Source: Salinivibrio kushneri
Lineage (GTDB): Bacteria; Pseudomonadota; Gammaproteobacteria; Enterobacterales; Vibrionaceae
Direction: 5' to 3'
Length of the DNA stretch: 64,000 nucleotides
NCBI RefSeq assembly: GCF_005280275.1
Contig: NZ_CP040022.1
Location: forward strand, 62,001 to 126,000
Shown here: positions 25,695-39,284 of the stretch, piece by piece
Position numbering within the stretch: position 1 is the stretch's first letter
How the letters are laid out: each line of letters begins with the position of its first letter
Notes under the pieces: model-generated
Told to the model about the DNA's origin: nothing
Seen by the model: the letters and a program-made list of their open reading frames with translations, nothing else
The model's database searches: none
Made by a program: the position numbers and the translations under genes

Positions 25695-25892
25695 GACTGT
25701 CTCTTGATGATCGCCCAATCGGGCTGCGTTGTTAACTCTAAACACTATATCAGGGTTTCGCTCACCACCCTATTGTAAATATGCCCGAGTCCCCACTCGG
25801 TTAAGTGCAATAAATCAGGCATATAGCACAAAACCACAAAGGACTGGGTTTCCTTTTTCAAGAAGGTGTCATACTGTAAAACAGAGGTGACA

Positions 25893-27524
25893 ATGAGACT
25901 AGACCGAATTGAAATAGCAGGCTTTCGTGGTATCAACCGCCTGTCACTGCAAGTAGATGAACTGACCGTTTTAATCGGTGAAAATGCATGGGGTAAATCT
26001 TCTCTACTCGATGCGTTAGAAATTGCCCTCCACCCCAGTGGCGATAAACCTCAATTCAAACGCTCGGACTTTCATGTCGACCATGTTCTGGGGGTCTTGC
26101 CTGAACAACAGTTTCAAATCATTCTCCGTTGGCAAGAGAGCTTTCCCGGTGAGCATAAAGCGCGTCGCTATCGCCGCTTTAAACCCGTTTGGAATGGAAC
26201 CAACGCGGGTTGCCGAACCCTTGATTATTGCTTGAGCGCCACCATCCAAGAAAGCAAGGTCTCGGTACGAAGAGCGTTTTTATCCTCACAAGGCGATATG
26301 ATTGAGCACGAAAACAGTGACGCGCTCGCCAGCCACCTGATGCAAATCCATCCTGTCGTTCGTGTACGTGACGCAAGGCGCATGCGCGTACCAGGACAAG
26401 CGGTGACCAAAGATAACACCCGTCTTGAGCAGCGGTTAGACAACACTTATCGCCGCCTGTTGATGATGCCTGGCCATGTGAATAAAGGCGAGATAAAGAG
26501 CGGCCTGCATGCCATGCGTCAATTGCTCGATCACTATTTTGCCGCCTACGAGCATGACCGCGATCCTTATCCCATTCATGCCCCGGGCGCATTGGCCATC
26601 ACGCATAACCAAATGCACCCGCTCGAAGCGGTGGCCGCAAACACCTCTAATCAAAGCCGGCTCGTGCTCATGGGCCTATTAAGTGCGTTTGTCCGAGCAC
26701 GCGGGCCTAAACAGCTCAAACGCAATGCGCGGCCAGTGATGCTATTTGAAGATCCAGAGGGGCGACTTCATCCAACCTTACTGAACCAAGCGTGGCGCTT
26801 GATTCAGTTGATGCCGATGCAAAAGCTGCTTACTACCAACAGTGGTGACTTGCTCGCGGGTGTACAACTAGACCATATTCGCCGTCTCGTGCGACACCCC
26901 ACCGAAACTCATAGCCACCAAGTACCGTCTCACCTTCTCAGCCAAGACGAGCGTCGCCGCGTCACCTTCCATGTTCGTTTTCACCGACCCAGTGCACTGT
27001 TTGCACGCTGTTGGCTATTGGTGGAGGGTGAAACAGAAATTTGGCTGTTTAACGAGCTGGCGCGATTGCAAGGTTATGACTTAGCGGCAGAAGGGGTACA
27101 CCTTATCGAGTTTGCCCAAAGCGGTTTGCGGCCGTTGATTAAGGCCGCCAAGGCCTTGGGCATTGAATGGCATTTAGTGGCAGATGGCGATATGGCTGGT
27201 AAGAAGTACGCTGCGACGGCGCGCGGGCAAATAGAGCATCAACCAGAGGGCGCGCGTTTAACCGTGCTGCCTGACCGCGACATTGAACACTACCTATATA
27301 ATAACGGCTATGAGCCTTTGTTTCGCGATATGGCCGGCGTCACGGCACAGCAGCCTCATATGAACGACAAACGCATCATCGCCAAAGCGTTAAAACGCTA
27401 TGCCAAGCCCGACGCCGCGCTGGCCATTATCGCTTATACCGAGAACGAGTTAAAAGCCCCGATCCCCAAGCTGTTGCGCTGGGTTATCCAACGCGCAATC
27501 GGTCTAGCCAGGGGGGTTGGTTAA
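25893..27524 (+). CDS. OLD-family ATP-dependent nuclease, YbjD-like (DUF2813)
   Basis: 543 residues from the ATG at 25893 (AGAGGTG upstream). A GTG at 25866 is possible. N-terminal ABC-type ATPase: Walker A GENAWGKSS at about residues 29-37, Walker B region VMLFEDPEGRLHP near 285. C-terminal TOPRIM: LLVEGETEIWLFNELA (Glu) and HLVADGDMAGKKYA (Asp pair). OLD proteins are nucleases or helicase-nucleases, some act in phage defence (OLD of P2, GajA). The E. coli relative YbjD stands alone and has no assigned role, and this copy also has no Gabija-type UvrD partner. Cytosolic. Confidence 0.8.
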   Translation: MRLDRIEIAGFRGINRLSLQVDELTVLIGENAWGKSSLLDALEIALHPSGDKPQFKRSDFHVDHVLGVLPEQQFQIILRWQESFPGEHKARRYRRFKPVWNGTNAGCRTLDYCLSATIQESKVSVRRAFLSSQGDMIEHENSDALASHLMQIHPVVRVRDARRMRVPGQAVTKDNTRLEQRLDNTYRRLLMMPGHVNKGEIKSGLHAMRQLLDHYFAAYEHDRDPYPIHAPGALAITHNQMHPLEAVAANTSNQSRLVLMGLLSAFVRARGPKQLKRNARPVMLFEDPEGRLHPTLLNQAWRLIQLMPMQKLLTTNSGDLLAGVQLDHIRRLVRHPTETHSHQVPSHLLSQDERRRVTFHVRFHRPSALFARCWLLVEGETEIWLFNELARLQGYDLAAEGVHLIEFAQSGLRPLIKAAKALGIEWHLVADGDMAGKKYAATARGQIEHQPEGARLTVLPDRDIEHYLYNNGYEPLFRDMAGVTAQQPHMNDKRIIAKALKRYAKPDAALAIIAYTENELKAPIPKLLRWVIQRAIGLARGVG

Positions 27525-27550: not shown

Positions 27551-28099
27551 CTATGGCTCTACCCGCTCAAAGAAAAGCGTGACTTTGCCGACTTCTATCC
27601 CCCATTTACGCATCGAAGTGACGTTAAAGAGGCGATCTTGGTCTTGGCGAAACATCCAATCGTCAAAGTGGAGTTGGTATTCGCTGTCGCCAACTGGCAC
27701 CACTAAGTCGTACCGCCAATTAAGCGCATTGCCCGCCACCACCCCTTTTGCCGTCCCGACGATGTCGCCAGCCGTCCCTGTATAAGTCCCGTCAGGGTGA
27801 CGTTTAATCGTCCAAACTCGGGTTTGCGTTTCGCCATCGGCATACACAAAGGATTCGTCCAGTGTCAGTGTGTCTCCCTCTACCACACCTTCGATATCAA
27901 CAACGAAGCGTCGGGTTTGCTCACCGGTAAAATCTTGCACCATACCCCAGGCTTTTGTTTGTCCTTCAAAGTACTCAAATAAATTAAAGTCCGGCTTTTG
28001 ACCTTGGTAATCTTCAATATCGGCAGAGCACGCCACCACCAGCATGGCACTCACCAATACCGTTAGGATCTTGCCTATCGTCTGCGTCATTTTTCTCAT
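27551..28099 (-). CDS. DUF3833 lipoprotein (last gene of the photolyase/Cfa operon)
   Basis: 182 residues. A lipoprotein signal (TVLVSAMLVVACSAD) gives a lipidated Cys at about residue 24. The rest is a beta-rich soluble domain (FNLFEYFEGQTKAWGMVQDF, RVWTIKRHPDGTYTGTAGD, FDDWMFRQDQDRLFNVTSMRKWGIEVGKVTLFF), as in DUF3833. Function unknown. The fold suggests lipocalin-like lipid handling, which is inference. The start overlaps the upstream stop by ATGA and has an AGGAG site. Conserved neighbourhood with Cfa-like and DUF1365 genes argues for a part in membrane-lipid modification. Confidence 0.78.
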   Translation of the reverse strand: MRKMTQTIGKILTVLVSAMLVVACSADIEDYQGQKPDFNLFEYFEGQTKAWGMVQDFTGEQTRRFVVDIEGVVEGDTLTLDESFVYADGETQTRVWTIKRHPDGTYTGTAGDIVGTAKGVVAGNALNWRYDLVVPVGDSEYQLHFDDWMFRQDQDRLFNVTSMRKWGIEVGKVTLFFERVEP

Positions 28100-28629
28100 G
28101 GCGTTTCTCCTAATAATGCTCGACGATGATCTGGATAATCCGTGTCTTCCGATAACCAGATCGCGAGAAATGCATCCGCCAGCTCGGTGTCATCCACTGT
28201 CAATGTCGTTTGCCAGCTTTCTCCTTTTGGCTGGGCGTAAAATATCCCTTTTTGTGCGTGGCGCACGAATGCCAAGCGATCGCCTTCTTCAATATCCCCC
28301 CACGCTTTGTCTAGCGCTTTTTCCCAACGCGCTCGTTGTGTTTCCGTAAAGCCCAAGTGTTCCCACTGATCCTTGGTTGCTTTCATCAGTCGTTGATCAC
28401 TGATGTCACGCGCGTAGGTAATCACTAGCGCGTGGGGTGCTTGCGCTTGATAACGCCCGGTCGGTGAGCGCAGTGATGACTGATAGATGGTCCACCAGCC
28501 CCAAGTTAACGTCGCTTCGCCAACTTGTGGCCAGCTTTGCCATGTCATTGACGACGACGTCGTCCCGACCGCATAGCCAGGCATTGCGAGCGCGAGCATT
28601 AAAATAAGGTGTTTTATCCGCCTATTCAT
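28096..28629 (-). CDS. Chalcone-isomerase-like exported protein
   Basis: 177 residues from the ATG at 28629 (AAGGAGAGAGCC upstream), overlapping the DUF2878 stop by ATGA. A signal peptide (LILMLALAMPGYAVG) is followed by a domain with the pattern of bacterial chalcone-isomerase-like proteins: VGEATLTWGWWTIYQSSLRSPTGRY, ALVITYARDISDQRLMKATKDQW, GDRLAFVRHAQKGIFY, FLAIWLSEDTDYPDHRRALLG. These bacterial proteins have no proven isomerase activity, and some resemble fatty-acid binders. Periplasmic location expected. Its place in the operon suggests handling of an oxidised or modified fatty acid. Role is inference. Confidence 0.72.
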   Translation of the reverse strand: MNRRIKHLILMLALAMPGYAVGTTSSSMTWQSWPQVGEATLTWGWWTIYQSSLRSPTGRYQAQAPHALVITYARDISDQRLMKATKDQWEHLGFTETQRARWEKALDKAWGDIEEGDRLAFVRHAQKGIFYAQPKGESWQTTLTVDDTELADAFLAIWLSEDTDYPDHRRALLGETP

Positions 28630-29144
28630 GGCTCTCTCCTTGTCGCGATAGAACGGGCACGCAACTGATGTTGCAGCCATTGCATCAGGTTAATCAGGAA
28701 GATGCTGTAGACTAACCAGACCCCTATCAGTACCGCGCCAGTGACCCATAGTGACTGTGGGAAGCTTAAAACCCCTAAACGCTCTCCTGCCCAGTAACTG
28801 CTCGCGCCACCCAAACTGCCCAGCGCCGCCATAAACCAAAATGCACGTGCAAGGATCAGGTCACGCATTAACCAGACAAAACTGCAAAATCCTAGCCACA
28901 GTAATAGTAGCCACAGCGGCATCACAACGTACTCAGTATCAACCGCTAACCACTGTGTGTGGAGTAATAGGCTATCACCGATCAACCCAACAGGCGTGAG
29001 TACGGCCATTGCCCACATCACGCTGCGGTCATAAAGGATCGCGCCCAGCAACATCGCGACCATCAACCACTGAAAGCTCGGCGGACCGAGCGCCGCCGAA
29101 AACCAGTAAACATTGAACAATAAAGAAATAACGACAAAGCGCAC
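28626..29144 (-). CDS. DUF2878 membrane protein
   Basis: 172 residues, almost entirely membrane helices (about five or six: VVISLLFNVYWFSAALG, WLMVAMLLGAILY, VLTPVGLIGDSLLL, VVMPLWLLLLWLGFCSFVW, AFWFMAALGSLGG, LWVTGAVLIGVWLVYSIFL). It matches the DUF2878 type, often found beside Cfa-like, DUF1365 and chalcone-isomerase-like genes. The function is unknown. Three bases separate its start from the methyltransferase stop, and its stop overlaps the next start. It could be an inner-membrane subunit that presents phospholipid substrates. Confidence 0.75.
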   Translation of the reverse strand: MRFVVISLLFNVYWFSAALGPPSFQWLMVAMLLGAILYDRSVMWAMAVLTPVGLIGDSLLLHTQWLAVDTEYVVMPLWLLLLWLGFCSFVWLMRDLILARAFWFMAALGSLGGASSYWAGERLGVLSFPQSLWVTGAVLIGVWLVYSIFLINLMQWLQHQLRARSIATRREP

Positions 29145-29147
29145 GAA

Positions 29148-30389
29148 TTATGCCTCTCGCCAAGCGGGGCGACTTAGGAGTAGCTGTACCGCACTGATCG
29201 TGCGCTCCTTAAAACCGCCCTCACAATAACAAAAGTAATAGCGCCACAAACGCGCAAAGCGATCGTCATAGCCGTAGTCGCGCAGTGCGTCTGTCTGCTG
29301 ATTGAAGCGTGTGTGCCAATCCGCCAAGGTTTGTGCGTAATCCAAGCCAATGTCTTTTAAGTCTCTGATCACAAAATCAGTTTGAGCGGTGAGGTGAGAC
29401 AACAACACACTCACTGAAGGTAAGAATCCTCCGGGGAAAATATGCTTTTGGATAAAGTCGACGTTCCGGCTGTAATGTTCGTAACGCTGATCAGCAATGG
29501 TGATCGCTTGGATAGCCATCAAACCATCAGGCTTAAGCAAGGCCTGACATTGACGCACAAAAGTGTCCAAGTACGCTTTCCCCACCGCTTCAATCATTTC
29601 AATCGATACCAGTTTATCGTATTCACCGGTCAGATCGCGGTAGTCTTTTTGTAGCAGCGTGATCTTATCTTCCAGCCCTTCTCGCTCGACACAGGCTTTT
29701 GCCCAAGCATATTGCTCTTGTGAAATCGTGGTGGTGGTCACGCGGCAGCCGTAATGTTTAGCCGCGTAGATCGCCATGCCTCCCCAGCCGGTGCCAATCT
29801 CGAGCAAATGATCATTTGCAGTCAGCGCAAGCTGTCGGCAGAGTCGGTCCATCTTCTCAACTTGGGCTTGTTCCAGCGTCATTTCTTTGTCTGTGTAAAT
29901 AGCGCTGGAATACAGCATTTGCTCATCAAGAAAATGGCGGTACAAGTCGTTGCCGAGGTCATAATGTGCTGCGATGTTGCGGCGCGCGGTCTCTTTTTCA
30001 TTGCGATTGCGCCAGTGAGCAAGCTTGTTACCCAACCCCACCAACCAGCCAGTGTGCTTTTCAATTTTGTCGATAGCAGGAAGGTTGCGAGCAAATACGC
30101 GAATGACGTCAGTTAAGTTTGGCGATTCCCACCAACCATCGATGTATGCCTCGGCCGCCGCAATGCTGCCGCCGGTTAAAATCCGGGTGTAAAAGCGTGG
30201 GTCGTGTACCAGCACGGATGCATGTAATTGTGCCTGAGGATCACCACACTGTAAGGTCTGGCCCTGCTCATCGACCAGGGAAATACACGCCTCATCAACA
30301 TGTGCTAGCAAGGTGTAAACCAACTGCTTGGCGTAGTGCTCTTTACGTGTCAGTGTGCGTTGACTCTGAGGGACGTCCGTTGCAGACAT
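29148..30389 (-). CDS. Cyclopropane-fatty-acid synthase/UfaM-like SAM-dependent fatty-acyl methyltransferase
   Basis: 413 residues from the ATG at 30389, which has GAAGGAG upstream and lies 2 bases after the DUF1365 stop. The earlier start at 30461 runs through the upstream gene. SAM site HLLEIGTGWGGMAIYAAKHYG (shown in part: LLEIGTGWGG) at about 170, active-site EMIEAVG, and YYFCYCEGGF near the end, equivalent to the catalytic-Cys region of Cfa. Cfa adds a methylene across the double bond of membrane phospholipid acyl chains. The close relatives linked to DUF1365 and FAD genes include UfaM, which methylates unsaturated acyl chains on the route to furan fatty acids. Which reaction occurs here is open. 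Confidence 0.86.
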   Translation of the reverse strand: MSATDVPQSQRTLTRKEHYAKQLVYTLLAHVDEACISLVDEQGQTLQCGDPQAQLHASVLVHDPRFYTRILTGGSIAAAEAYIDGWWESPNLTDVIRVFARNLPAIDKIEKHTGWLVGLGNKLAHWRNRNEKETARRNIAAHYDLGNDLYRHFLDEQMLYSSAIYTDKEMTLEQAQVEKMDRLCRQLALTANDHLLEIGTGWGGMAIYAAKHYGCRVTTTTISQEQYAWAKACVEREGLEDKITLLQKDYRDLTGEYDKLVSIEMIEAVGKAYLDTFVRQCQALLKPDGLMAIQAITIADQRYEHYSRNVDFIQKHIFPGGFLPSVSVLLSHLTAQTDFVIRDLKDIGLDYAQTLADWHTRFNQQTDALRDYGYDDRFARLWRYYFCYCEGGFKERTISAVQLLLSRPAWREA

Positions 30390-30391
30390 AA

Positions 30392-31138
30392 TTACTCCTT
30401 CTTCGCACTCGGGTGCGGATAAAACGGTGCGCCCTTTATCCATAGTTTGAGCGCTTGCCAATAAATACCAATGACAACTTTTACTGTTTCCATCGGCGTC
30501 CGGATCAATAACTTATTCAGTGTTTTTGATGTAAACGGACGTCGCTGCAGTCCCAGTGTGGCGTCGAATTCTTTCTGTTGTCGGTGAGCCTCGAGGTGCA
30601 AGTGAACCCGCTTGCCTAAGGGGCGCAGACGCCAGTGATAACGCTGCTTAATAGGATTAAACGGAGAGACATGAAACGCTTTGTCATGTTCATACCGTTG
30701 ACCCGCAGGCACGGCATAATAATGCCGCTCTCCCCACGGGGTATTACTTACCTCGGCTAATAAATAACGCCAGTTATGCGCTTGGTCATAGAGGTAATAA
30801 AAGTTGGCCGGACTAAAATACACGCCCAAATAACGTAGCTGGCACAACGCATACACTTTCCCCTCAATGCGCTCGCCTGTCAGTTCTTGAATCTTATCGA
30901 TGCATGCTGCTTTGGTATCCGCTTGTCCATTCAAATAATCGCGGTGATCAAAGGCGGCTACCCCCCACTTGCCCAAGCGAAACCCTGTGACCTGCGATGC
31001 CAGCAAACTAAGCTCATCCAGATCAATCACAGGCATAAACACCGGGTAATTGAACGTGTGTTTTATTGGGCTAAATCGCCGATGCCGCACGTGTCCGACA
31101 TACAAACCGCTATTTAGTGCTGAAACCGACTCACTCAC
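30392..31138 (-). CDS. DUF1365 protein
   Basis: 248 residues with the family signature: LYVGHVRHRRFSPIKHTFNYPVFM at the N-terminus, FYYLYDQAHNWRYLLAEVSNTPWGERHYYAV in the middle (here seen as NFYYLYDQAHNWRYLLAEV) and KAFHVSPFNPIKQRYHW, then LTIRTPMETVKVVIGIYWQALKLW-like C-terminus. No signal peptide. DUF1365 genes travel with FAD oxidoreductase and Cfa-like genes in many bacteria, but the biochemical role is not established. Start overlaps the FAD gene stop by ATGA, stop is 2 bases before the Cfa-like start. Confidence 0.88.
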   Translation of the reverse strand: MSESVSALNSGLYVGHVRHRRFSPIKHTFNYPVFMPVIDLDELSLLASQVTGFRLGKWGVAAFDHRDYLNGQADTKAACIDKIQELTGERIEGKVYALCQLRYLGVYFSPANFYYLYDQAHNWRYLLAEVSNTPWGERHYYAVPAGQRYEHDKAFHVSPFNPIKQRYHWRLRPLGKRVHLHLEAHRQQKEFDATLGLQRRPFTSKTLNKLLIRTPMETVKVVIGIYWQALKLWIKGAPFYPHPSAKKE

Positions 31139-32394
31139 GAATTGATCCCCTCCACCACATCAAGCGCACTCCGCACACCATCCTCGTGAAAGCCGTTATA
31201 CCAGTAGGCGCCACAGAACCAGCTACGTTGCTGGCCATTCACTCGATGGCGCTGTTGCTGTGCGGCAACACTGTCGGTATTAAATACGGGGTGAGCATAG
31301 ACAAATTGCTTGAGAATTTTACTCGGCTCAATCCTGTCGGTTTGATTTAGCGTCACGCAGAATGTCTCAGGCGCCTGAATTGACTGCAATATATTCATAT
31401 TGTAGGTCAAAGCCGCCGGATCTGTGTCTATTTTATCTGACAACGGCAAATGATAGTTCCAACTCGCCCAGGCGCCTTGACGCTTGGGCAACAGCGATGT
31501 ATCGGTATGAAGCACAACCTCATTGTCTTGATAGGGAATCGCCCCGAGCACCTGTTGCTCCGCTTCACTAGGATCGGCCAGCATGGCCAAGGCTTGGTCA
31601 CTGTGACAGGCAAAGATCACCTGTTCAAACGCCTGTTCACCGGCCTCTGTCGTCACCCATACCGCATCAGGGGTACGGCGAACCTGTGTCACCGGTGAAT
31701 TCAGGTGGATCTTATCCTCAAAGGCAGGCGTGAGCTTTTTAACATACTCACGAGAGCCACCGGGGATCACATACCATTGCGGCCGATTCGCGATATCCAA
31801 TAAGCCATGGTTTTGGAAAAAACGTAGAAAGAACGCCAAGGGGAAACCACGCATATCCGACAAGGTGGATGACCAAATCGCCGCGCCCATGGGGAGAATA
31901 TAGTTTTGACAAAAATAATCGCTGAACCCATGTTGATTGAGAAAATCACCCAAGGTGTTGAGTGCGCCTTGCCGCTCAGCCTCACCCGTGGCATGTGCGT
32001 CGCGCGCAAGGCGATTAAATCGCATAATCTCGGCCAAAAAGCGGTAGAAACGCACATTGATAACATTACGCTTCTGCGCAAATAACGAGGAAAGGCTGTG
32101 CCCGTTATACTCCAGTCCATTCGCATCATTGCGGACACTAAAGCTCATCTGAGAAGGTTGGCGATCCACACCAATTTCATTGAGTAAACGTTCATAGTTC
32201 GGGTAGGTGCGATCGTTAAAAACGATAAAGCCGGTATCAATCGCGTACTGTCCACTGGCGACCTCGACATCGACTGTCGCCGTGTGGCCCCCCAGATAAT
32301 CATTCGCTTCAAACAAGGTGATATCATGCTGTTTATTGAGATAATGAGCACAGGTTAAACCGGCAATGCCTGAGCCGATGATGGCAATTTTCAT
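31135..32394 (-). CDS. FAD-dependent oxidoreductase (amine oxidase/phytoene-desaturase fold)
   Basis: 419 residues opening with the dinucleotide site IAIIGSGIAGLTCAHYL and the second FAD motif EANDYLGGHTATVDV. Later motifs (DTGFIVFNDRTYPNYERLL, GAAIWSSTLSDMRGFPLAFFLRFF, YVIPGGSREYVKKL and the terminal WFCGAYWYNGFHEDGVRSALDV) are typical of the NAD/FAD-binding protein found with DUF1365 and Cfa-like genes. In furan-fatty-acid producers a member of this wider family acts as a fatty-acyl desaturase (UfaD), so acyl-chain oxidation at the membrane is a fair guess. The exact substrate is not visible. Confidence 0.87.
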   Translation of the reverse strand: MKIAIIGSGIAGLTCAHYLNKQHDITLFEANDYLGGHTATVDVEVASGQYAIDTGFIVFNDRTYPNYERLLNEIGVDRQPSQMSFSVRNDANGLEYNGHSLSSLFAQKRNVINVRFYRFLAEIMRFNRLARDAHATGEAERQGALNTLGDFLNQHGFSDYFCQNYILPMGAAIWSSTLSDMRGFPLAFFLRFFQNHGLLDIANRPQWYVIPGGSREYVKKLTPAFEDKIHLNSPVTQVRRTPDAVWVTTEAGEQAFEQVIFACHSDQALAMLADPSEAEQQVLGAIPYQDNEVVLHTDTSLLPKRQGAWASWNYHLPLSDKIDTDPAALTYNMNILQSIQAPETFCVTLNQTDRIEPSKILKQFVYAHPVFNTDSVAAQQQRHRVNGQQRSWFCGAYWYNGFHEDGVRSALDVVEGINS

Positions 32395-32397
32395 GCT

Positions 32398-33123
32398 TTA
32401 GTTCCTTGTCATACGTCGTGCGAGGGCTCGCTGCCAGGACATGGGCAGTAGCGCGAGAAACTTGAGAATAAAGGTAAATTTCCGCGGAAAATGTATTTCC
32501 GTTTTTCCTTTTGCCAATCCTTTTTGAATGGCCTCAGAGGCTTGCTCCACCGTGATGCGCATCGGCATCGCAAAGTCGTTTTGGTCTGTCAGTGGCGTCT
32601 TTACAAACCCCGGCGAGATAAGTGACAGCGTCACCCCTTGCTGTGCCAAATCGACCGATAAGGTGTTGGCAATGTAGCTAATCGCCGCCTTTGATCCGCC
32701 GTATGCTTCCGCACGTGGCAGCGGCATATAACTGGCCGAGGAGCCGACAATGGCAAGATGCGTGCTGTGAGTGAACCGAGCCTGTAGCGCTTCAATACAA
32801 TGGAGAACACCGAAGACATTGATCTCAAACACACGCTTAAACAGTGCCACATCGACTTTGCCATGGTCGATATATTCACACGTCCCGGCATTTAAAATAA
32901 TTAAATCAGGAAAGACGCTTAGGTTACCCAGCGCTTGATGCGTTTGTTCGCTATCCGTAGCGTCAAACGCCAATGCGTCTAGTGATGCGTGATCGCGAGC
33001 CATGGTGTTTAGCTTGTCTTGGTTCCGTCCACAAGCTGTCACCTGCCAGCCTTGACGTGCATAGTCTCTTGCCAATTGCTCACCAATTCCCGACGTCGCG
33101 CCGGTGATCAATACGTGTTTCAT
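32398..33123 (-). CDS. Short-chain dehydrogenase/reductase
   Basis: 241 residues with the classical SDR pattern: TGATSGIGEQLARDY (nucleotide-binding glycine motif at residues 7-13), NAG at ILNAGTCEY, catalytic Ser in IVGSSASYMPL and Tyr-x-x-x-Lys in AEAYGGSKAAI. The C-terminal part (LKFLALLPMSWQRALARRMTRN) is hydrophobic and basic and may touch the membrane. It lies 3 bases upstream of the FAD gene and overlaps the NTF2-like gene by 4 bases. A similar SDR occurs in singlet-oxygen regulated Cfa/DUF1365 loci. The substrate is unknown. Confidence 0.88.
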   Translation of the reverse strand: MKHVLITGATSGIGEQLARDYARQGWQVTACGRNQDKLNTMARDHASLDALAFDATDSEQTHQALGNLSVFPDLIILNAGTCEYIDHGKVDVALFKRVFEINVFGVLHCIEALQARFTHSTHLAIVGSSASYMPLPRAEAYGGSKAAISYIANTLSVDLAQQGVTLSLISPGFVKTPLTDQNDFAMPMRITVEQASEAIQKGLAKGKTEIHFPRKFTFILKFLALLPMSWQRALARRMTRN

Positions 33124-33560
33124 TGTCCTAGCCTCGTTTTGATATGTTTGAGCAAGCGACCTATCACAGGCAGCGCTTCGTACAGCATTTCACCTAAGTC
33201 GAAGTAATCACGATGCCGAATGATTTTGCCGTCACAAAAACATAAGTGAGAACAGCCCTGGACTTGTCGCGTTTTTCCCCCATCCAGCTTGGGGTGCGAT
33301 AACATCATGGTCCAGGTCACAAAGGCATCATCTCCGTCTACCGCGGTCGTGTGTATATGAAATTGACAATCAGTCACGTTTTCGTACAGCAGCGAAAAAT
33401 ACTGGATAAACGCCTCTAAGCCAGTTATCTCGTGCGCCGGGTCGACAAACACAATCTTGGGGTGATAAATCGTCGCCAGTGATGACAAGTTATCTTTATT
33501 GAGCGCTTGATAGGTCGTCACAAATTGCGACACACCGACATGGGTTGGCGAGCGAGTCAT
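33120..33560 (-). CDS. NTF2/SnoaL-like protein
   Basis: 146 residues forming one NTF2-like cone: FVTTYQALNKDNLSSLATIYHPKIVFVDPAHEITGLEAFIQYF followed by strands CQFHIHTTAVDGDDAFVTWTMML and CSHLCFCDGKIIRHRDYFDLGEMLYEALP (quoted in part; the conserved HRDYFD box is at about 118-123). Proteins of this fold bind or isomerise small hydrophobic molecules. The HRDYFDLGEM segment is typical of the nuclear transport factor 2 family members found beside photolyase and Cfa-like genes. Start and stop overlap neighbours by 4 bases. Confidence 0.8.
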   Translation of the reverse strand: MTRSPTHVGVSQFVTTYQALNKDNLSSLATIYHPKIVFVDPAHEITGLEAFIQYFSLLYENVTDCQFHIHTTAVDGDDAFVTWTMMLSHPKLDGGKTRQVQGCSHLCFCDGKIIRHRDYFDLGEMLYEALPVIGRLLKHIKTRLGQ

Positions 33561-34999
33561 GGTGTTTGCTCCTGAGGCTGATTCTTCGCCGCTTCAAATA
33601 TGGCTAGCGCCTTTTTACGCTGAGTGGCGTGATCCACCACCGGACGCGGATAATCAAGGGACTGGGCATACTTATCCGCCCACTGCCAGGGGTTGTGAAT
33701 ATGCTTGCCTGGCACCTCTTTAAGCGCCGGTAACCAGCGACGAATAAAGCGCCCATCGCTATCAAATCGCTCTCCCTGTGTGGTCGGATTAAAGATCCGA
33801 AAGTAAGGTTGAGCATCGGTCCCCACCGACGCAGACCATTGCCAGCCCCCGTTGTTCGAGGCAAAATCGCCATCAATCAGTTTGGACATGAAGTAATCTT
33901 CTCCCCAGCGCCAATCGATAAGCAGATCTTTGGTCAAAAAGCTCGCCACAATCATTCTCAACCGGTTATGCATCCAACCCGTTTGATTAAGCTGGTGCAT
34001 GGCCGCATCCACAATGGGGAAGCCCGTTTTTCCCGTCTTCCAAGCCTCAAACAATGTCGGGTCGTTATCCCATACCACGGATTCGCCCCAGGCTAAAAAG
34101 CTGTACTTTTTGCTGATTGCTGGGTTTTGTGCGCTCACTTCCTGATAAAAATCACGCCAAATAAGCTCCGACAGCCAGGTGGCAGCCCCTGTATCGGGCT
34201 CGCGCCAATCGGCTTGCTCTTCTTGTAAACGCGCCAAGCATTGACGCGGGGATAATGCGCCAATGGCCAAATAAGGAGAAAGCTGACTGGTGGCATCAAC
34301 CGCCGGAAAGTCACGCTGTCGTTTATAATCCGCCACTTGCTCGCGGCAGTAACGACGCATGTGCGCGAGGATCCCTTTCTCATCGGACGCCCAGTCCGAG
34401 ACATCCTCCATCGGATAATCAAAATGAATCGGTTGAAGCTGTGAAAAGATCGCGTCAACGGCTGAGTTTGTCTCGCGCTTGGATGGTTTTTGGCACGGTG
34501 AAACATCCATGCCGTCTAGGGCACGTAAGCAGGCTTTTTTGAAGGGAGTAAACACCTTATACGGTTCACCTTTTCCCGATTTTATGGTGCCCGGGGCAAA
34601 TAAATTGCGGTCATCATAGGCATACCATGCGATGCCTTTATCCGCTAACGCCGCGCACGCCTGTTCATCACGCTTGCTTTCATTAAGCTCGTACTCCTTG
34701 TTGGCAAACACCGCTGTTGCGCCAATGCGGTGCGCATAGTCGGCCACTTTTTCTGCCGATTGAGGAAAATCAGCCGCACGCTCCACCACTAAAGGAATAT
34801 TTTTCGCGCTAAGCTCCTCACGTAACGCGTCTAGCCGCGCCTTAATAAGGCCCGCTTGCTTGGGCGAAAGGTGGTGCGATGCCCACTGTTCCGGTGTCTC
34901 AATAAAAATCCCCACCACGGGCTCGGACGCGTCGCTGGCTGCGCTCAACGCACGATTATCCAGCCCGCGTAAATCGCGCCGAAACCAGACTAGATGCAT
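33557..34999 (-). CDS. phrB: Deoxyribodipyrimidine photolyase
   Basis: 480 residues, class I CPD photolyase size. The N-terminal antenna domain starts LVWFRRDLRGLDNRAL. The FAD-binding half shows the family signatures TWLSELIWRDFYQEV, TGFPIVDAAMHQLNQTGWMHNRLRMIVASFL (in part: GWMHNRLRMI), DWRWGEDYFMSKLIDGDFASNNGGWQW and RIFNPTTQGERFD. The enzyme uses blue light to split cyclobutane pyrimidine dimers. The N-terminal HxxxxxR region is compatible with an MTHF antenna. It lies between the MerR-type regulator (10-base overlap) and the NTF2-like gene (4-base overlap), so it is expressed as part of the operon. Confidence 0.95.
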   Translation of the reverse strand: MHLVWFRRDLRGLDNRALSAASDASEPVVGIFIETPEQWASHHLSPKQAGLIKARLDALREELSAKNIPLVVERAADFPQSAEKVADYAHRIGATAVFANKEYELNESKRDEQACAALADKGIAWYAYDDRNLFAPGTIKSGKGEPYKVFTPFKKACLRALDGMDVSPCQKPSKRETNSAVDAIFSQLQPIHFDYPMEDVSDWASDEKGILAHMRRYCREQVADYKRQRDFPAVDATSQLSPYLAIGALSPRQCLARLQEEQADWREPDTGAATWLSELIWRDFYQEVSAQNPAISKKYSFLAWGESVVWDNDPTLFEAWKTGKTGFPIVDAAMHQLNQTGWMHNRLRMIVASFLTKDLLIDWRWGEDYFMSKLIDGDFASNNGGWQWSASVGTDAQPYFRIFNPTTQGERFDSDGRFIRRWLPALKEVPGKHIHNPWQWADKYAQSLDYPRPVVDHATQRKKALAIFEAAKNQPQEQTP

Positions 35000-35820
35000 A
35001 ACGTTTTGTTCTCCTTAAGTTCTGCCAACTCGTCACCGTGTACGGAGCAGATAAAAGCTTGGCTCACCACCTCAATATCATCTTGAGTAAGGCAATGGCG
35101 TACCTGATTGAGTTGGGCACGATCGAGCCGACGATTTGCCATCAAGGCCAATGTTCTCGCCCCCTGCTCCCGCATCACCTCAACCAACATATTCAACTGT
35201 TGATGCGGGCTTGACAGAATAGTGACACTGTAACCCTTCTCGTTGAGTGCCATGGCCATCAGCACACGTTGGTATTCACTGGTCACGGTTAAGGAGACAA
35301 GCCAGCATCGAGATGGTGCATGCCGTTTTGCATTCGCCGCCAGCGCTGTTCGGCATCGATCGATCACGGCGCTTTGCCACAGGTCGCGCTGTAACAAACG
35401 TACCGCTTCCCCGTCGTCACCTAACCATTGGTCGACTGGGGTAAAGGCATGCTCGACTAACCAATAGAAGGGATACTCTTTTAAAAGCGTGTCCAGAACA
35501 TTCCCTAGCCGTTTAACCGAGAATGTGTGAATACAGTCAATCAGTTCACGTGCCACGCTGTCATCGCCCGTGTCTGCCGACGCGGGACTGTGAGCCAGAA
35601 GTGGCTTGACCTTGCTGATCGGTACGCCTTTATCTAACCATTGAAGAATATGAGCGATAGTCTCTACATCTTCTTGGCTATAAAGCCGATGTCCCTTGGC
35701 CGTCCGCTCAGGCGCAAGCAATCCATAACGTCGCTGCCAAGCACGCAGCGTGACAGGGTTAACCCCGGTTTGATCCGCGACCTGACTGATGGTCAGAGCG
35801 TGAGTCGTGTTAAAGGCCAT
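34990..35820 (-). CDS. LitR/CarH-like MerR-family regulator without cobalamin-ligand residues
   Basis: 276 residues: an N-terminal MerR winged helix (TISQVADQTGVNPVTLRAWQRRYGLL...GHRLYSQEDVETIAHI) and a C-terminal domain shaped like the B12-binding region of LitR/CarH. The residues that bind adenosylcobalamin are missing: the ExHxxG motif reads EYQRVL, and the W-x9-EH motif after QWLGD lacks EH. This is the pattern of class II LitR regulators, which sense light with other help. It overlaps phrB by 10 bases and the upstream DUF523 gene by 11 bases. The paired TGTACA sites ahead of the operon are its likely operators, giving self-control. Confidence 0.83.
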   Translation of the reverse strand: MAFNTTHALTISQVADQTGVNPVTLRAWQRRYGLLAPERTAKGHRLYSQEDVETIAHILQWLDKGVPISKVKPLLAHSPASADTGDDSVARELIDCIHTFSVKRLGNVLDTLLKEYPFYWLVEHAFTPVDQWLGDDGEAVRLLQRDLWQSAVIDRCRTALAANAKRHAPSRCWLVSLTVTSEYQRVLMAMALNEKGYSVTILSSPHQQLNMLVEVMREQGARTLALMANRRLDRAQLNQVRHCLTQDDIEVVSQAFICSVHGDELAELKENKTLCI

Positions 35821-36763
35821 AGCGAAGCCTCAGCGCATCAGGATAAGGCTTGAGATAGGCTTGGTTAGCTAAGTACGCATCAGGGTGATTATGGAGGTGA
35901 TGCGAAATCAACGTCAGCGGTGCCAGTAAAGGCATGGTGCCCTGACGATACGCATGAATAAGGTTCGCTAACTCAGCTTTCTGGCTTTTATCAAGGTTGT
36001 TTTTAAAATAGCCTTGCAGGTGCATCAGCACGTTGGTGTGTTTTTTACGCGTCGCACGAATGGCGATGGCTTGCATAAACGCGGTGCGGTACTGTTCAAA
36101 AAAACGATCAAGGTCATAATGGCCGATGTTGGCCATAAATCGCCCAAGCTCACGGTACTTTTCAGGTGAGTGCGCCATCAGCACCAACTTATAGCGTGAG
36201 TGGAAATCGACAAGGGCTTTCTTGGTCACCCCTTGCTCGACACTCTGGTAAAGATCATCAAGCGCAAATAGCCGAAAAACAAAGTTCTCTTTGAGGATAG
36301 GATCGTTAAGCCGGCCGTCTTCTTCAACAGGTAGCCATGGCATACGCGCCATCAGTGCCTGAGTGTAAAGCCCTACCCCGGAAATATCGGAGGCGTAACC
36401 ATTCTCGCGGTAGACTTTCACCCGCTCCATGCCACAAGTCGGTGACTTAGCACAAACAATGTAGCCACGCAGTGATTGATGAGCGAGCTCCTCCGCTTTT
36501 TGCTCACTGAACGCCGTCATTTTTTCGGTGTAATCTTTTTGCTGATCTTTGGTTTCCACCAGCCTCACTGACAAATCGCCTTTGTCGACTAACCGAATAG
36601 CGGGGCGCGGTACAGGGAGTCCGATCCCGACTTCAGGGCATACTGGCACAAAGTCTACATAGGGTGCCAACTCTTTGCTGACAAAGGGACTCCGCTTATG
36701 ACCACTGTCGAATCGTACTTTTTCGCCAATAACACAGGCGCTAACACCGACGGGGAATGACAT
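35810..36763 (-). CDS. DUF523-DUF1722 fusion protein (YbgA/TudS-like)
   Basis: 317 residues. DUF523 part (1-160): conserved cysteines in VSACVIGEKVRFDSGHKR, VPVCPEVGIGLPVPR and AKSPTCGMERVKVY. In the related thiouracil desulfidase TudS such cysteines hold an Fe-S cluster. DUF1722 part (about 185-305, FHSRYKLVLMAHSPEKYRELGR...LMHLQGYFK) is the domain of E. coli YbgA, which is also encoded just upstream of phr. A sulfur or tRNA/nucleobase-related role is possible. Function unproven. It is the first gene of the operon, its ATG preceded by AGAGG and by the operators at 36805-36882. Confidence 0.86.
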   Translation of the reverse strand: MSFPVGVSACVIGEKVRFDSGHKRSPFVSKELAPYVDFVPVCPEVGIGLPVPRPAIRLVDKGDLSVRLVETKDQQKDYTEKMTAFSEQKAEELAHQSLRGYIVCAKSPTCGMERVKVYRENGYASDISGVGLYTQALMARMPWLPVEEDGRLNDPILKENFVFRLFALDDLYQSVEQGVTKKALVDFHSRYKLVLMAHSPEKYRELGRFMANIGHYDLDRFFEQYRTAFMQAIAIRATRKKHTNVLMHLQGYFKNNLDKSQKAELANLIHAYRQGTMPLLAPLTLISHHLHNHPDAYLANQAYLKPYPDALRLRYGL

Positions 36764-36804
36764 AACTGACCTCTACACTAGCCGCGCCGTATTGGCTACG
36801 GAGT

Positions 36805-36828
36805 TGTACATTTATAATATGTTGTACA
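36805..36828. promoter_or_regulatory. LitR-type operator 1 (TGTACA-N12-TGTACA)
   Basis: TGTACA at 36805-36810 and 36823-36828, exactly 12 bases apart, 42-65 bases before the first gene of the photolyase operon. The inner copy extends to the 10-base palindrome GTTGTACAAC (36821-36830). The spacer holds an AT-rich TATTATAA suited to a -10 region on the minus strand, so bound protein would block transcription. The form matches the TGTACA-N12 operator I recall for Pseudomonas class II LitR. Confidence 0.72.
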
Positions 36829-36850
36829 ACTAAGAGTAGAGGATGGATCA

Positions 36851-36882
36851 AAATTGTACAAAAAAAATTTTTTGTACAATTT
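36851..36882. promoter_or_regulatory. LitR-type operator 2 inside a 32-base perfect inverted repeat
   Basis: TGTACA at 36855-36860 and 36873-36878, again exactly 12 bases apart and 50 bases from operator 1. It lies in a longer perfect inverted repeat: arms of 15 bases at 36851-36865 and 36868-36882 with a 2-base centre. The two operators are in phase by about five DNA turns, which would allow co-operative or looped binding. The rest of the 277-base intergenic region upstream of the divergent EAL gene shows nothing else clear. Confidence 0.72.
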
Positions 36883-37040
36883 CATATTCGGTCGCGTTTA
36901 GGTCAGTGGCTGGATTAATCAGCCCATTCTGTTGGCGCCACGCTACCGGGCAATGTCTCAGTATTGATACGCGCAATCCCCATTCTTCGAACTACACTGG
37001 CAAAATCTGGTTATAACCTTAAGCCTTATGCGCAGGCCCT

Positions 37041-39284
37041 ATGCCTTTATCGACATTCAACGGTCACAACGAGGACCCGATCACACTCGCTAGACGGTCG
37101 GCACAACCCCGTGGACGTGCGATGATTTTCATCGCGCTCGTCTGTTTTGCTGTGCTCGTTGCGACGTTTTTGTTGTATCAGGCTGCCCAATCACAACAAG
37201 CACAACGGATTGAAAAACTTCTCAATGTGGAAGTTCAAGCTTTGTCTCGTGCCGTCGAACGTGACATTGATACGCAACTCACGCGGCTAAGTGCATTAGC
37301 CAGCAATATCGAGTTAGATGTGCCCTCGACCTTCTCGACATGGCAAGCCTTAGTGCAACAAACCCAACAAGACAGTGCCTATATTTCATCATTATTTTGG
37401 GCGGACAGCCGACGAGTAATAAGTTGGCAAACACACGCGGATACCAGCCATGATCAACCGCGCTTTTCATTTGACGTAGTGGGTGAACCAGAGGGCCAGC
37501 TTAAGACAGACCAGCCCGATCTTACCCAATGGCGAATTGCTTATCCGATTTATAGCCGTGACCGTGCAGAGCCAAGCTACTATCTTGGTGCAATCATTAA
37601 TCTTGACGCGCTTATTAACGAGGTTGCGTCCGACTATCTTAACCAACATCAACACCTCACCATCACCCGTTGGGCAAACGACACCGTGTTGCGCGGTGAC
37701 ACTATCTCCCCGTTTGCCGCGGTTGGTTCGGCACCTTTGAGATTGACGAGCACGCAATCGGCGATGCAGCTCACGCTTTGGCAAGAGCCAGGCGCCAGTC
37801 AGTTTATTTCATTACCCATCATGATTTACATCGCCGGCATGCTTGTGGCGCTGTTATTGGGCATCACCTTGTATTTGGCTGAGGTGAATTTGATGTCTCG
37901 CCGGGCGGCACAGACCACGATTGATTATTTAAAAAATGAAATTGAGCAACGCAAAGACGTCGAGCAGCAACTACATTTTATCGCAAACCACGACGCCTTG
38001 ACGTATCTCCCCAATCGTCATGCCCTCACTCGCTATATTCAGCAGCGAGTACATGAATCCAGCACTTACCCACACGATCTCGCGCTAATCTGCGTAGATA
38101 TTGATAACATAAAAGAGATCAATGATTTATATGGACAAGCGGTGCATGATCAGCTTTTAGTTGAATTAGCACAGCGTCTACAGCGCGTCAGGCAAACCGA
38201 TGACTACATTGCCAAAATCAGCGATGACCAATTCGCGATTGCCGGCAGCGAGCTTTCACCGCTGAAAGCGGAGATCTACGCGAAACAGATCCGCAAAACC
38301 ATTGAGCAACCTTTCTTCCATCACGCAGAGGAGATTATTGTCACCTGTGCCGTCGGCATTAGTTACCGTTACGATGCGTCCATGCCGGCCCAGGAACTGT
38401 TACGTCACGCAGACACCGCGGCCCATCGCGCTCGTCAACTCTCTCATCACAGAGTCGTGGTGTTCCAAATGGCCATGCGAGACCATCTGCATCAGAAAAA
38501 AGATACCGAGTACGCCATCCGCAAAGCGATTCAAGGTAACGAGTTGAGCTTACATTTTCAGCCGCAAATCGATTTAAACGATCACAGCATTGCTGGCATT
38601 GAAGCCTTGGTACGTTGGCAAGATACAGAGGGCGCGGTAATTTCTCCTGATACCATCGTTCGTACCGCAGAAGACACCGGGCTTATGCGGCAGTTAGGCA
38701 CTTGGGTGGTTAATGAGGCGCTAGAAACCTATGCAACCTTGCTGGCGCAGCACTGCGCCCCTCCATTTATCGCGATAAATATCTCTGGGCATGAATTCCA
38801 AGACAGCTTCCTCGCCGATACTATTCTCCATGCCATCGAACGCCATCAAGTCCCACCCGAACGAGTGCAAATTGAGCTGACAGAACAAGTTTTCATTGAA
38901 AACCTCAGCCAAAACCAACATACCTTACACACGCTCGCGGCAGCAGGCGTTTCCCTAGCAATTGACGATTTTGGCACGGGGTACTCCTCCCTCGCCTACC
39001 TTAAGCATTTCCCGGTGGACACCGTCAAAATCGATCGCAGTTTTGTCGCCGATCTGCCTCATTGCAAAGACGATATCGTGATTTGCCAAGCCGTCATTAA
39101 GATGGCGCAATTGCTGAAATTAAAAGTGGTTGCGGAAGGAGTGGAACGTGAAGATCAGCGTGACTTTTTGCTTGATCTGGGCTGTCGCTACGCACAGGGG
39201 CACCTTTACCATCCCTCAATGAATATCCATCAGTTAACGGCGCTCCTCACTCAGTCACAACCTATCACCCGCTTATTTAATTAA
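37041..39284 (+). CDS. Membrane GGDEF(degenerate)-EAL cyclic-di-GMP phosphodiesterase
   Basis: 747 residues: membrane helix at about 29-47, a periplasmic sensor domain to about 262, second helix (LPIMIYIAGMLVALLLGITLYL), GGDEF domain (about 310-470) and EAL domain (about 480-735). The diguanylate-cyclase signature is SDDQF in place of GGDEF, so synthesis is unlikely. The EAL residues are intact: EALVRW, NISGHEF, ELTEQVF, IDDFGTGYSSL, KIDRSFV and AEGVE. It should hydrolyse c-di-GMP in response to a periplasmic signal. It is divergent from the photolyase operon across 277 bases containing the TGTACA sites, so common control is possible. It overlaps the convergent GIY-YIG gene by 4 bases. Confidence 0.9.
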   Translation: MPLSTFNGHNEDPITLARRSAQPRGRAMIFIALVCFAVLVATFLLYQAAQSQQAQRIEKLLNVEVQALSRAVERDIDTQLTRLSALASNIELDVPSTFSTWQALVQQTQQDSAYISSLFWADSRRVISWQTHADTSHDQPRFSFDVVGEPEGQLKTDQPDLTQWRIAYPIYSRDRAEPSYYLGAIINLDALINEVASDYLNQHQHLTITRWANDTVLRGDTISPFAAVGSAPLRLTSTQSAMQLTLWQEPGASQFISLPIMIYIAGMLVALLLGITLYLAEVNLMSRRAAQTTIDYLKNEIEQRKDVEQQLHFIANHDALTYLPNRHALTRYIQQRVHESSTYPHDLALICVDIDNIKEINDLYGQAVHDQLLVELAQRLQRVRQTDDYIAKISDDQFAIAGSELSPLKAEIYAKQIRKTIEQPFFHHAEEIIVTCAVGISYRYDASMPAQELLRHADTAAHRARQLSHHRVVVFQMAMRDHLHQKKDTEYAIRKAIQGNELSLHFQPQIDLNDHSIAGIEALVRWQDTEGAVISPDTIVRTAEDTGLMRQLGTWVVNEALETYATLLAQHCAPPFIAINISGHEFQDSFLADTILHAIERHQVPPERVQIELTEQVFIENLSQNQHTLHTLAAAGVSLAIDDFGTGYSSLAYLKHFPVDTVKIDRSFVADLPHCKDDIVICQAVIKMAQLLKLKVVAEGVEREDQRDFLLDLGCRYAQGHLYHPSMNIHQLTALLTQSQPITRLFN

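Follow-up and report, generated by a model that had tools for sequence, protein, structure and literature searches.

Promoters carrying two copies of TGTACA-N12-TGTACA have been described in Pseudomonas mendocina, where light-inducible genes are controlled by PmlR2, a CarH-family MerR protein of LitR class II, together with its LOV partner PmSB-LOV. At the sigma-70 promoter P6650, one site lies over the −35 element and the other between the transcription start and the ATG; PmlR2 protects positions −54 to +37 on one strand and represses transcription in vitro (PMC9758184). One operon under such control codes for PhrB, LitR, and RudS (PMC11417400). According to the P. mendocina study, class II LitR proteins are found mainly in Pseudomonas, and class IV proteins mainly in Vibrio, the latter lack a B12-binding domain, and their function is given as unknown (PMC9758184).

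Two further systems bear on the control of comparable operons by an extracytoplasmic function (ECF) sigma factor and its anti-sigma factor ChrR. In Vibrio cholerae, which has both ChrR and sigma-E, the MerR protein VCA0056 and the photolyase Phr (VCA0057) belong to one predicted operon; expression of VCA0056, phr, and VCA0058 is strongly raised by loss of chrR, the light response that remains in the chrR mutant needs VCA0056, and the chrR-merR double mutant no longer responds to light. The authors did not decide whether MerR and ChrR belong to one pathway, and no MerR operator is given in the accessible part of their report (PMC5241685). In Shewanella oneidensis, the SO_3386 operon (ybgA-phrB-cfa) of the RpoE2-ChrR regulon has a predicted RpoE2 promoter, TGATC-N17-CGTAA, with a spacer that includes TTGTACAA (PMC4336711). 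A review describes sigma-E targets as predicted to be conserved across alpha- and gammaproteobacteria (PMC6852236). From the S. oneidensis prediction and this review, as far as their accessible text goes, sigma-E control of the operon is therefore an already published idea for relatives.

Here we describe a locus of Salinivibrio kushneri in which elements of these systems appear together. It resembles the P. mendocina system in its two TGTACA-N12-TGTACA sites and in its CarH-family MerR protein, but differs from it in three respects: its LitR is of the Vibrio type, none of the genome's 30 PAS_9 matches carries a LOV motif, and a sigma-E-like element lies between the two operators. With V. cholerae it shares the family, a merR gene and phr in one predicted operon, and the presence of ChrR and sigma-E. 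With S. oneidensis it shares a counterpart operon and the 17-bp promoter spacing; there, however, the −10 element is a separate CGTAAT and no LitR operator is named in the accessible text (PMC4336711), whereas here the TGTAC of an operator stands at the −10 place. Among the matches listed by our literature search, neither a class IV LitR operator nor LitR and sigma-E at one promoter was named in titles or opening abstract lines, and the phrase 'class IV LitR' was not found. The operators and the autocontrol would thus be of a known kind, while an overlap of a sigma-E promoter with a LitR operator, as predicted here from sequence, was not found described.

Two exact operators upstream of rudS

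The window (the whole 64,000-nucleotide stretch of DNA that was analysed) belongs to the second contig (0.60 Mb) of a two-contig genome totalling 3.44 Mb. It contains two exact copies of TGTACA-N12-TGTACA, which are predicted to be LitR operators on the basis of the exact match and of counterparts in relatives: a proximal site, op1 (36805..36828), which covers part of the region where transcription of the operon is inferred to start, and a distal site, op2 (36855..36878), neither of them assigned to a strand. The two are 50 bp apart from start to start, leaving a gap of 26 bases, and both lie within the 277-base intergenic region 36764-37040, flanked by rudS (start 36763, minus strand) and a GGDEF/EAL gene (start 37041, plus strand). 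Dinucleotide shuffles of the window (n = 100) yielded a mean of 0.01 such sites, with no shuffle containing two. The hexamer TGTACA occurs nine times in the window; four of these copies are the operator hexamers, and they are the only ones in the intergenic region.

These results bear out what a sequence-only reading of the region had reported, namely two exact operators and four TGTACA hexamers in a 277-base intergenic region, with the pairs 50 bases apart. The same reading had described a 32-base perfect inverted repeat; this has to be corrected, because the unstranded palindrome around op2 (36851..36882) pairs at 15 rather than 16 of its 16 positions (30/32 bases equal to its own reverse complement). 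The palindrome was also considered as a terminator and rejected, as a scan of 36700-37100 gave one terminator-like site, at 36908-36924, which does not coincide with the operators.

Operator conservation in Vibrionaceae and beyond

A search of 101 Vibrionaceae genomes gave 61 litR loci (E < 1e-20, one per genome), and in 60 of them the gene immediately upstream of litR is rudS. A twin operator, defined by spacers of 11 or 12 and a gap of 22-28, precedes the litR operon in exact form in 29/61 loci, in 44/61 at ≤1 mismatch and in 55/61 at ≤2 mismatches out of the 24 half-site bases, compared with 0/1220 dinucleotide shuffles. At ≤2 mismatches it was missed in six loci (L032, L103, L105, L115, L122, and L125). 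In Salinivibrio, all eight loci carry two exact sites at the same 50-bp distance. A universal N12 rule was rejected, since spacers of 11 and 12 are both found among relatives: when spacers of 9-13 and ≤4 mismatches were permitted, 59 loci could be fitted (all except L115 and L122), and their spacer pairs were (12,12) in 25 cases, (11,11) in 16, (11,12) in 16, and others in two. In a second collection of 80 named loci, many of whose genomes are shared with the family set, the layout was detected in 66 at ≤3 mismatches; nine of the 14 misses belong to Pantoea, Erwinia, and Mixta, and one (L207) comes from a short piece of contig.

The only family locus without rudS directly upstream is L101, from a Photobacterium genome (G027) in which a rudS, identified by its Pfam matches, lies ~3 kb from litR and twin operators are found before each of the two genes. 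The rudS promoter of this split operon (L073, 1453-1524), which falls outside the family counts, has twin operators and a TGATC element 17 bp before the operator, and the litR-phr promoter (L101) has twin operators and a TATAGT box.

Across the class, exact double operators were found at two places in 369 genomes: in the S. kushneri genome itself and at one repeat-protein gene. Among 29 class-sample litR loci (searched at ≤1 mismatch over about 1.5 kb), one had the twin layout, one a single site, and 27 neither. The twin layout (L285, 415-487) comes from a gammaproteobacterium outside the family and stands before rudS-litR-phr, with its sites 49 bp apart and one mismatch in each.

The sequence-only reading had proposed searching the genome for further copies of TGTACA-N12-TGTACA. 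This search returned one additional exact site, making three in total. The third site (C1:2392628-2392651; L001, 1501-1524) is located inside the coding frame of a radical-SAM HemN/HemW-like gene and recurs at the same place in L052, which carries another genus code; it was rejected as an operator on account of protein conservation. The three N12 sites with one mismatch all fall within frames, no exact N11 site was found in this genome, and at two mismatches the 64 N12 sites, compared with 75 in the reversed control, amount to no signal. In a subset of sites from relatives, comprising 11 single-site loci (L046, L047, L052, L056, L061, L065, L066, L068, L070, L071, and L073), ten sites are within frames and one precedes the split-off rudS. 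A wider LitR regulon was rejected, no other promoter of the S. kushneri genome having been found with a site (N12 at 0-1 mismatches, N11 exact). As the operators track the head of the operon and no other promoter was found, they look like one dedicated, self-acting target. Control of the operon by its own LitR, as proposed in the sequence-only reading, is very likely from the comparison of the family loci.

A CarH-like regulator lacking the cobalamin motif

The second gene of the operon, litR (34990..35820, minus strand), codes for a protein of 276 residues with a MerR helix-turn-helix (HTH) domain (Pfam MerR_1); PF13411 was detected in 31/31 aligned LitR members. An AlphaFold2 model built with 31 family sequences (mean pLDDT 86.3) has a helical bundle and a Rossmann-like part, and its best PDB matches are the Thermus thermophilus CarH chains 5c8d/5c8e (E 2e-11), with an alignment over the whole chain. 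The whole-chain TM-score is just 0.46, because the domains are placed differently. By its MerR-type HTH and the CarH-like C-terminal fold of the model, the protein is a member of the LitR/CarH family, and its identification as a LitR/CarH-like MerR protein from sequence stands.

The cobalamin-binding motif of class I LitR/CarH consists of W-x9-EH and E-x-H-x-x-G. In this form it was found in none of the 61 family LitR proteins (one of which, L123, is truncated), unlike in T. thermophilus CarH, and class I, the B12 photoreceptors, was rejected for this reason. As a control, 26 of 29 homologues from the class sample were recovered, and 17 of these 26 have W-x9-EH; the litR of L285 is without it. 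Since CarH is the best PDB match of the model and the motif is missing throughout, the Vibrio-type LitR seems to keep the CarH fold but not the cobalamin motif. A C-terminal histidine, H261, is shared by no fewer than 90% of the 31 aligned Vibrio-type LitRs and might mark a ligand site.

Class II was considered as well, the sequence-only reading having compared the sites with its operator. The sites do agree with the class II operator, T(G/A)TACA-N12-TGTA(C/T)A, with two sites around the promoter. Class II was rejected despite this match, the protein being of the Vibrio type and no LOV cysteine motif being found among the genome's 30 PAS_9 matches; this photoreceptor search covered the PAS_9 family, and a DNA-level search for the LOV motif gave a chance-level result. 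Going by its Vibrio-group distribution (61/101 family genomes) and missing cobalamin motif, LitR here is of the Vibrio type, that is, class IV by distribution, under the class definition in the accessible text of PMC9758184.

A sigma-E-like promoter element and its co-occurrence with ChrR

The sequence-only reading was right about the operators and missed a sigma-E/ChrR-like element between them. On the minus strand, 36824-36850 reads TGATC-N17-TGTAC, in which TGATCC (36845..36850) is the inferred −35 element of a ChrR-controlled sigma-E (ECF11) promoter and TGTAC (36824..36828) its inferred −10 element, the latter being at the same time the first half-site of op1. The alternative would be a weak sigma-70 promoter, with TACTCT (36833..36838, minus strand; 3/6 matches to TATAAT) as its −10 element, 17 bp from a TTGTAC (36856-36861) supplied by the inner half of op2. 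No sigma-70 site passed a consensus scan of 36700-37100.

TGATC is found in 32 of the 59 fitted family promoters, and in 31 of the 32 it lies 17 bp before op1; shuffled spacers contained it in 361/11800 cases. Measured from op2, it lies at a distance of 4 in 25 promoters and of 1, 3, or 5 in seven, six of which hold the 17 bp to op1, so TGATC seems to take its position from the proximal half-site. Among the named loci, 20/25 promoters have a spacing to op1 of 17, four have 18, and one has 16, so that it varies more than one would conclude from the family set. TTGTAC occupies the −35 place in 57/59 loci. Matches to the sigma-70 −10 consensus averaged 4.07/6 in promoters without TGATC versus 3.22/6 in those with it (p = 7e-6, ignoring relatedness).

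A related sequence, TGATCC-N15-CGTAY, lies upstream of the ECF sigma gene beside chrR in 8/8 Salinivibrio loci and, by exact pattern, in 15/33 chrR loci across the family. The proposed −10 TGTAC is one base off this genus rpoE −10 (CGTAY), with a spacing one base longer; the regulon pattern tested was TGATC-N16-18-CGTAW, and the operon reads TGATC-N17-TGTAC. The looser pattern TGATC-N15-18-BGTAY is not rare, occurring five times in the window versus 2.4 expected. Its genome count (149 versus 36 in the reversed control) was set aside as evidence, because the reversed control differs in dinucleotide make-up.

ChrR, called as TIGR02451 above cut-off, is present in 8/8 Salinivibrio genomes, and in the S. 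kushneri genome the gene before chrR carries sigma-70 regions 2 and 4 (Pfam). TGATC was found in 32/46 family genomes with ChrR versus 0/15 without it (p = 1.1e-6, Fisher's test), and within one genus code (g8, Photobacterium) in 6/9 versus 0/13 (p = 0.001). It is absent from 14/46 genomes with ChrR, including 10/10 of genus code g12 (Vibrio), and present in 1/20 named Vibrio loci with the layout (V. proteolyticus, at 16 bp). These Vibrio-group promoters, V. cholerae not among them, are thus mostly without TGATC (0/10 and 1/20) and have N11 spacers. On the litR tree each of the two traits changes five times, which leaves two well-supported independent pairs of changes (five on all branches), too few for a tree-corrected test of ChrR against TGATC to reach significance.

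Proposed mechanism and alternatives

The operators, their conservation, the gene order, the predicted CarH fold, the loss of the cobalamin motif, the TGATC spacing, and the co-occurrence with ChrR can be read directly from sequence; from them we infer LitR binding, repression, a light response, the use of sigma-E, and AND logic. We consider it probable, with some reserve, that the operon is self-repressed, with its own LitR on both operators, a promoter read by sigma-E, and a need for both to be released. The two sites would be operators for LitR, which is encoded by the second gene of the operon itself. LitR would occupy both of them in the dark, bracketing the core promoter and blocking RNA polymerase; upon a light or oxidant input it would leave, and the eleven genes rudS-litR-phr-...-cfa-... 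would be made. Because litR is among the expressed genes, the circuit would limit itself. In Salinivibrio, recognition of the promoter would most likely fall to RpoE, the ECF sigma factor held by the anti-sigma factor ChrR until singlet oxygen appears. The −10 element and the operator have TGTAC in common, so that LitR and sigma-E would be in competition for these bases; the operon would be fully expressed only after both release by ChrR and release of LitR. Light induction of the operon is suggested chiefly by the analogy with V. cholerae (PMC5241685). The mutant data reported there fit a LitR that, in the Vibrio group, works separately from sigma-E. We are evenly divided on the more specific proposal that a LitR half-site doubles as the sigma-E −10 element and that the operators stay fixed while the core promoter between them swaps between sigma-E and sigma-70 with the presence of ChrR.

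The main competitor of this mechanism, unlikely in our view though deserving serious attention, supposes a conventional sigma-70 promoter, TTGTAC-N17-TACTCT, that LitR blocks and in which TGATC would be incidental, a remnant, or a sequence with another role, such as Dam methylation of GATC. The near-constant TTGTAC at the −35 place (57/59 loci) and the 27/59 promoters without TGATC both speak for it, as does P. mendocina, whose promoter of the same two-site layout is a sigma-70 promoter (PMC9758184). It accounts poorly, however, for a −10 element with just 3/6 matches, for a consensus scan without any sigma-70 promoter, and for a TGATC that keeps 17 bp from op1 in 31/32 promoters and is missing in 15/15 ChrR-less genomes.

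Repression itself could be questioned, given that LitR has a MerR HTH and that, in V. cholerae, MerR was considered a possible suppressor or enhancer (PMC5241685): LitR might be a classic MerR activator that untwists an over-long promoter spacer. We regard this as very improbable: the operators stand on either side of the core promoter and extend over its ends, not between −35 and −10, and PmlR2 acts as a repressor in vitro from sites laid out in the same way (PMC9758184). Even less credible, to our mind, is that the sites serve another regulator or the GGDEF/EAL gene (37041-39284), although two divergent genes do share the region. The EAL gene was seen to have a counterpart in 6/61 loci, all from Salinivibrio (the loci extend a few hundred bases past rudS, so that a farther EAL gene would escape), versus 55/61 in which operators accompany the litR operon, and in L101 the operators are directly before litR.

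Under the self-repression mechanism with sigma-E, a LitR class described as functionally unknown (PMC9758184) would gain a conserved promoter on which LitR and ChrR appear to converge, making its role testable. LitR and sigma-E should meet at one promoter in Salinivibrio, in Grimontia/Enterovibrio, and in some Photobacterium; for most of the examined Vibrio group, the expected target of LitR is a sigma-70 promoter, with sigma-E playing no part. This would be a case of operators staying in place while the promoter class between them changes.

Genes of the operon

The operon comprises eleven minus-strand genes, overlapping or abutting, from 36763 down to 27551. The first, rudS (35810..36763), codes for a fusion of TudS (2-thiouracil desulfurase; Pfam PF04463) and DUF1722 (PF08349), of the tRNA 4-thiouridine desulfidase type; RudS enzymes take 4-thiouridine off tRNA and are frequent in light-responsive operons (PMC11417400). 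After litR follow phr (33557..34999), a deoxyribodipyrimidine photolyase gene (NCBIfam PRK10674, above cut-off), and genes for a SnoaL-like protein (33120..33560; PF12680), a short-chain dehydrogenase (SDR; 32398..33123; PF00106), a FAD amine-oxidase-like protein (31135..32394; PF01593), a DUF1365 protein (30392..31138; PF07103), a CFA-like fatty acyl methyltransferase (29148..30461; PF02353), a DUF2878 protein (28626..29144), a chalcone-isomerase-like protein (28096..28680; PF16036 at 25.6 bits, just under the cut-off of 27), and, as the last of the series, a DUF3833 protein (27551..28099), all on the minus strand. A single switch would thereby tie removal of tRNA 4-thiouridine by RudS to DNA photorepair and, probably, to membrane lipid modification.

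In Rhodobacter, furan fatty acids are made by UfaD, UfaO, and UfaM (PMC7380195). Within 29148-32394 of the window, the FAD amine-oxidase-like, DUF1365, and CFA-like genes are akin to these three by family: DUF1365 is the domain family of UfaO, and the FAD protein is possibly a UfaD-like desaturase (PMC7380195). By analogy, the FAD protein, the DUF1365 protein, and the methyltransferase may make furan fatty acids here. Beyond the end of the operon, on the plus strand (25866-27524), lies a gene for a DUF2813 protein with an OLD-like TOPRIM domain.
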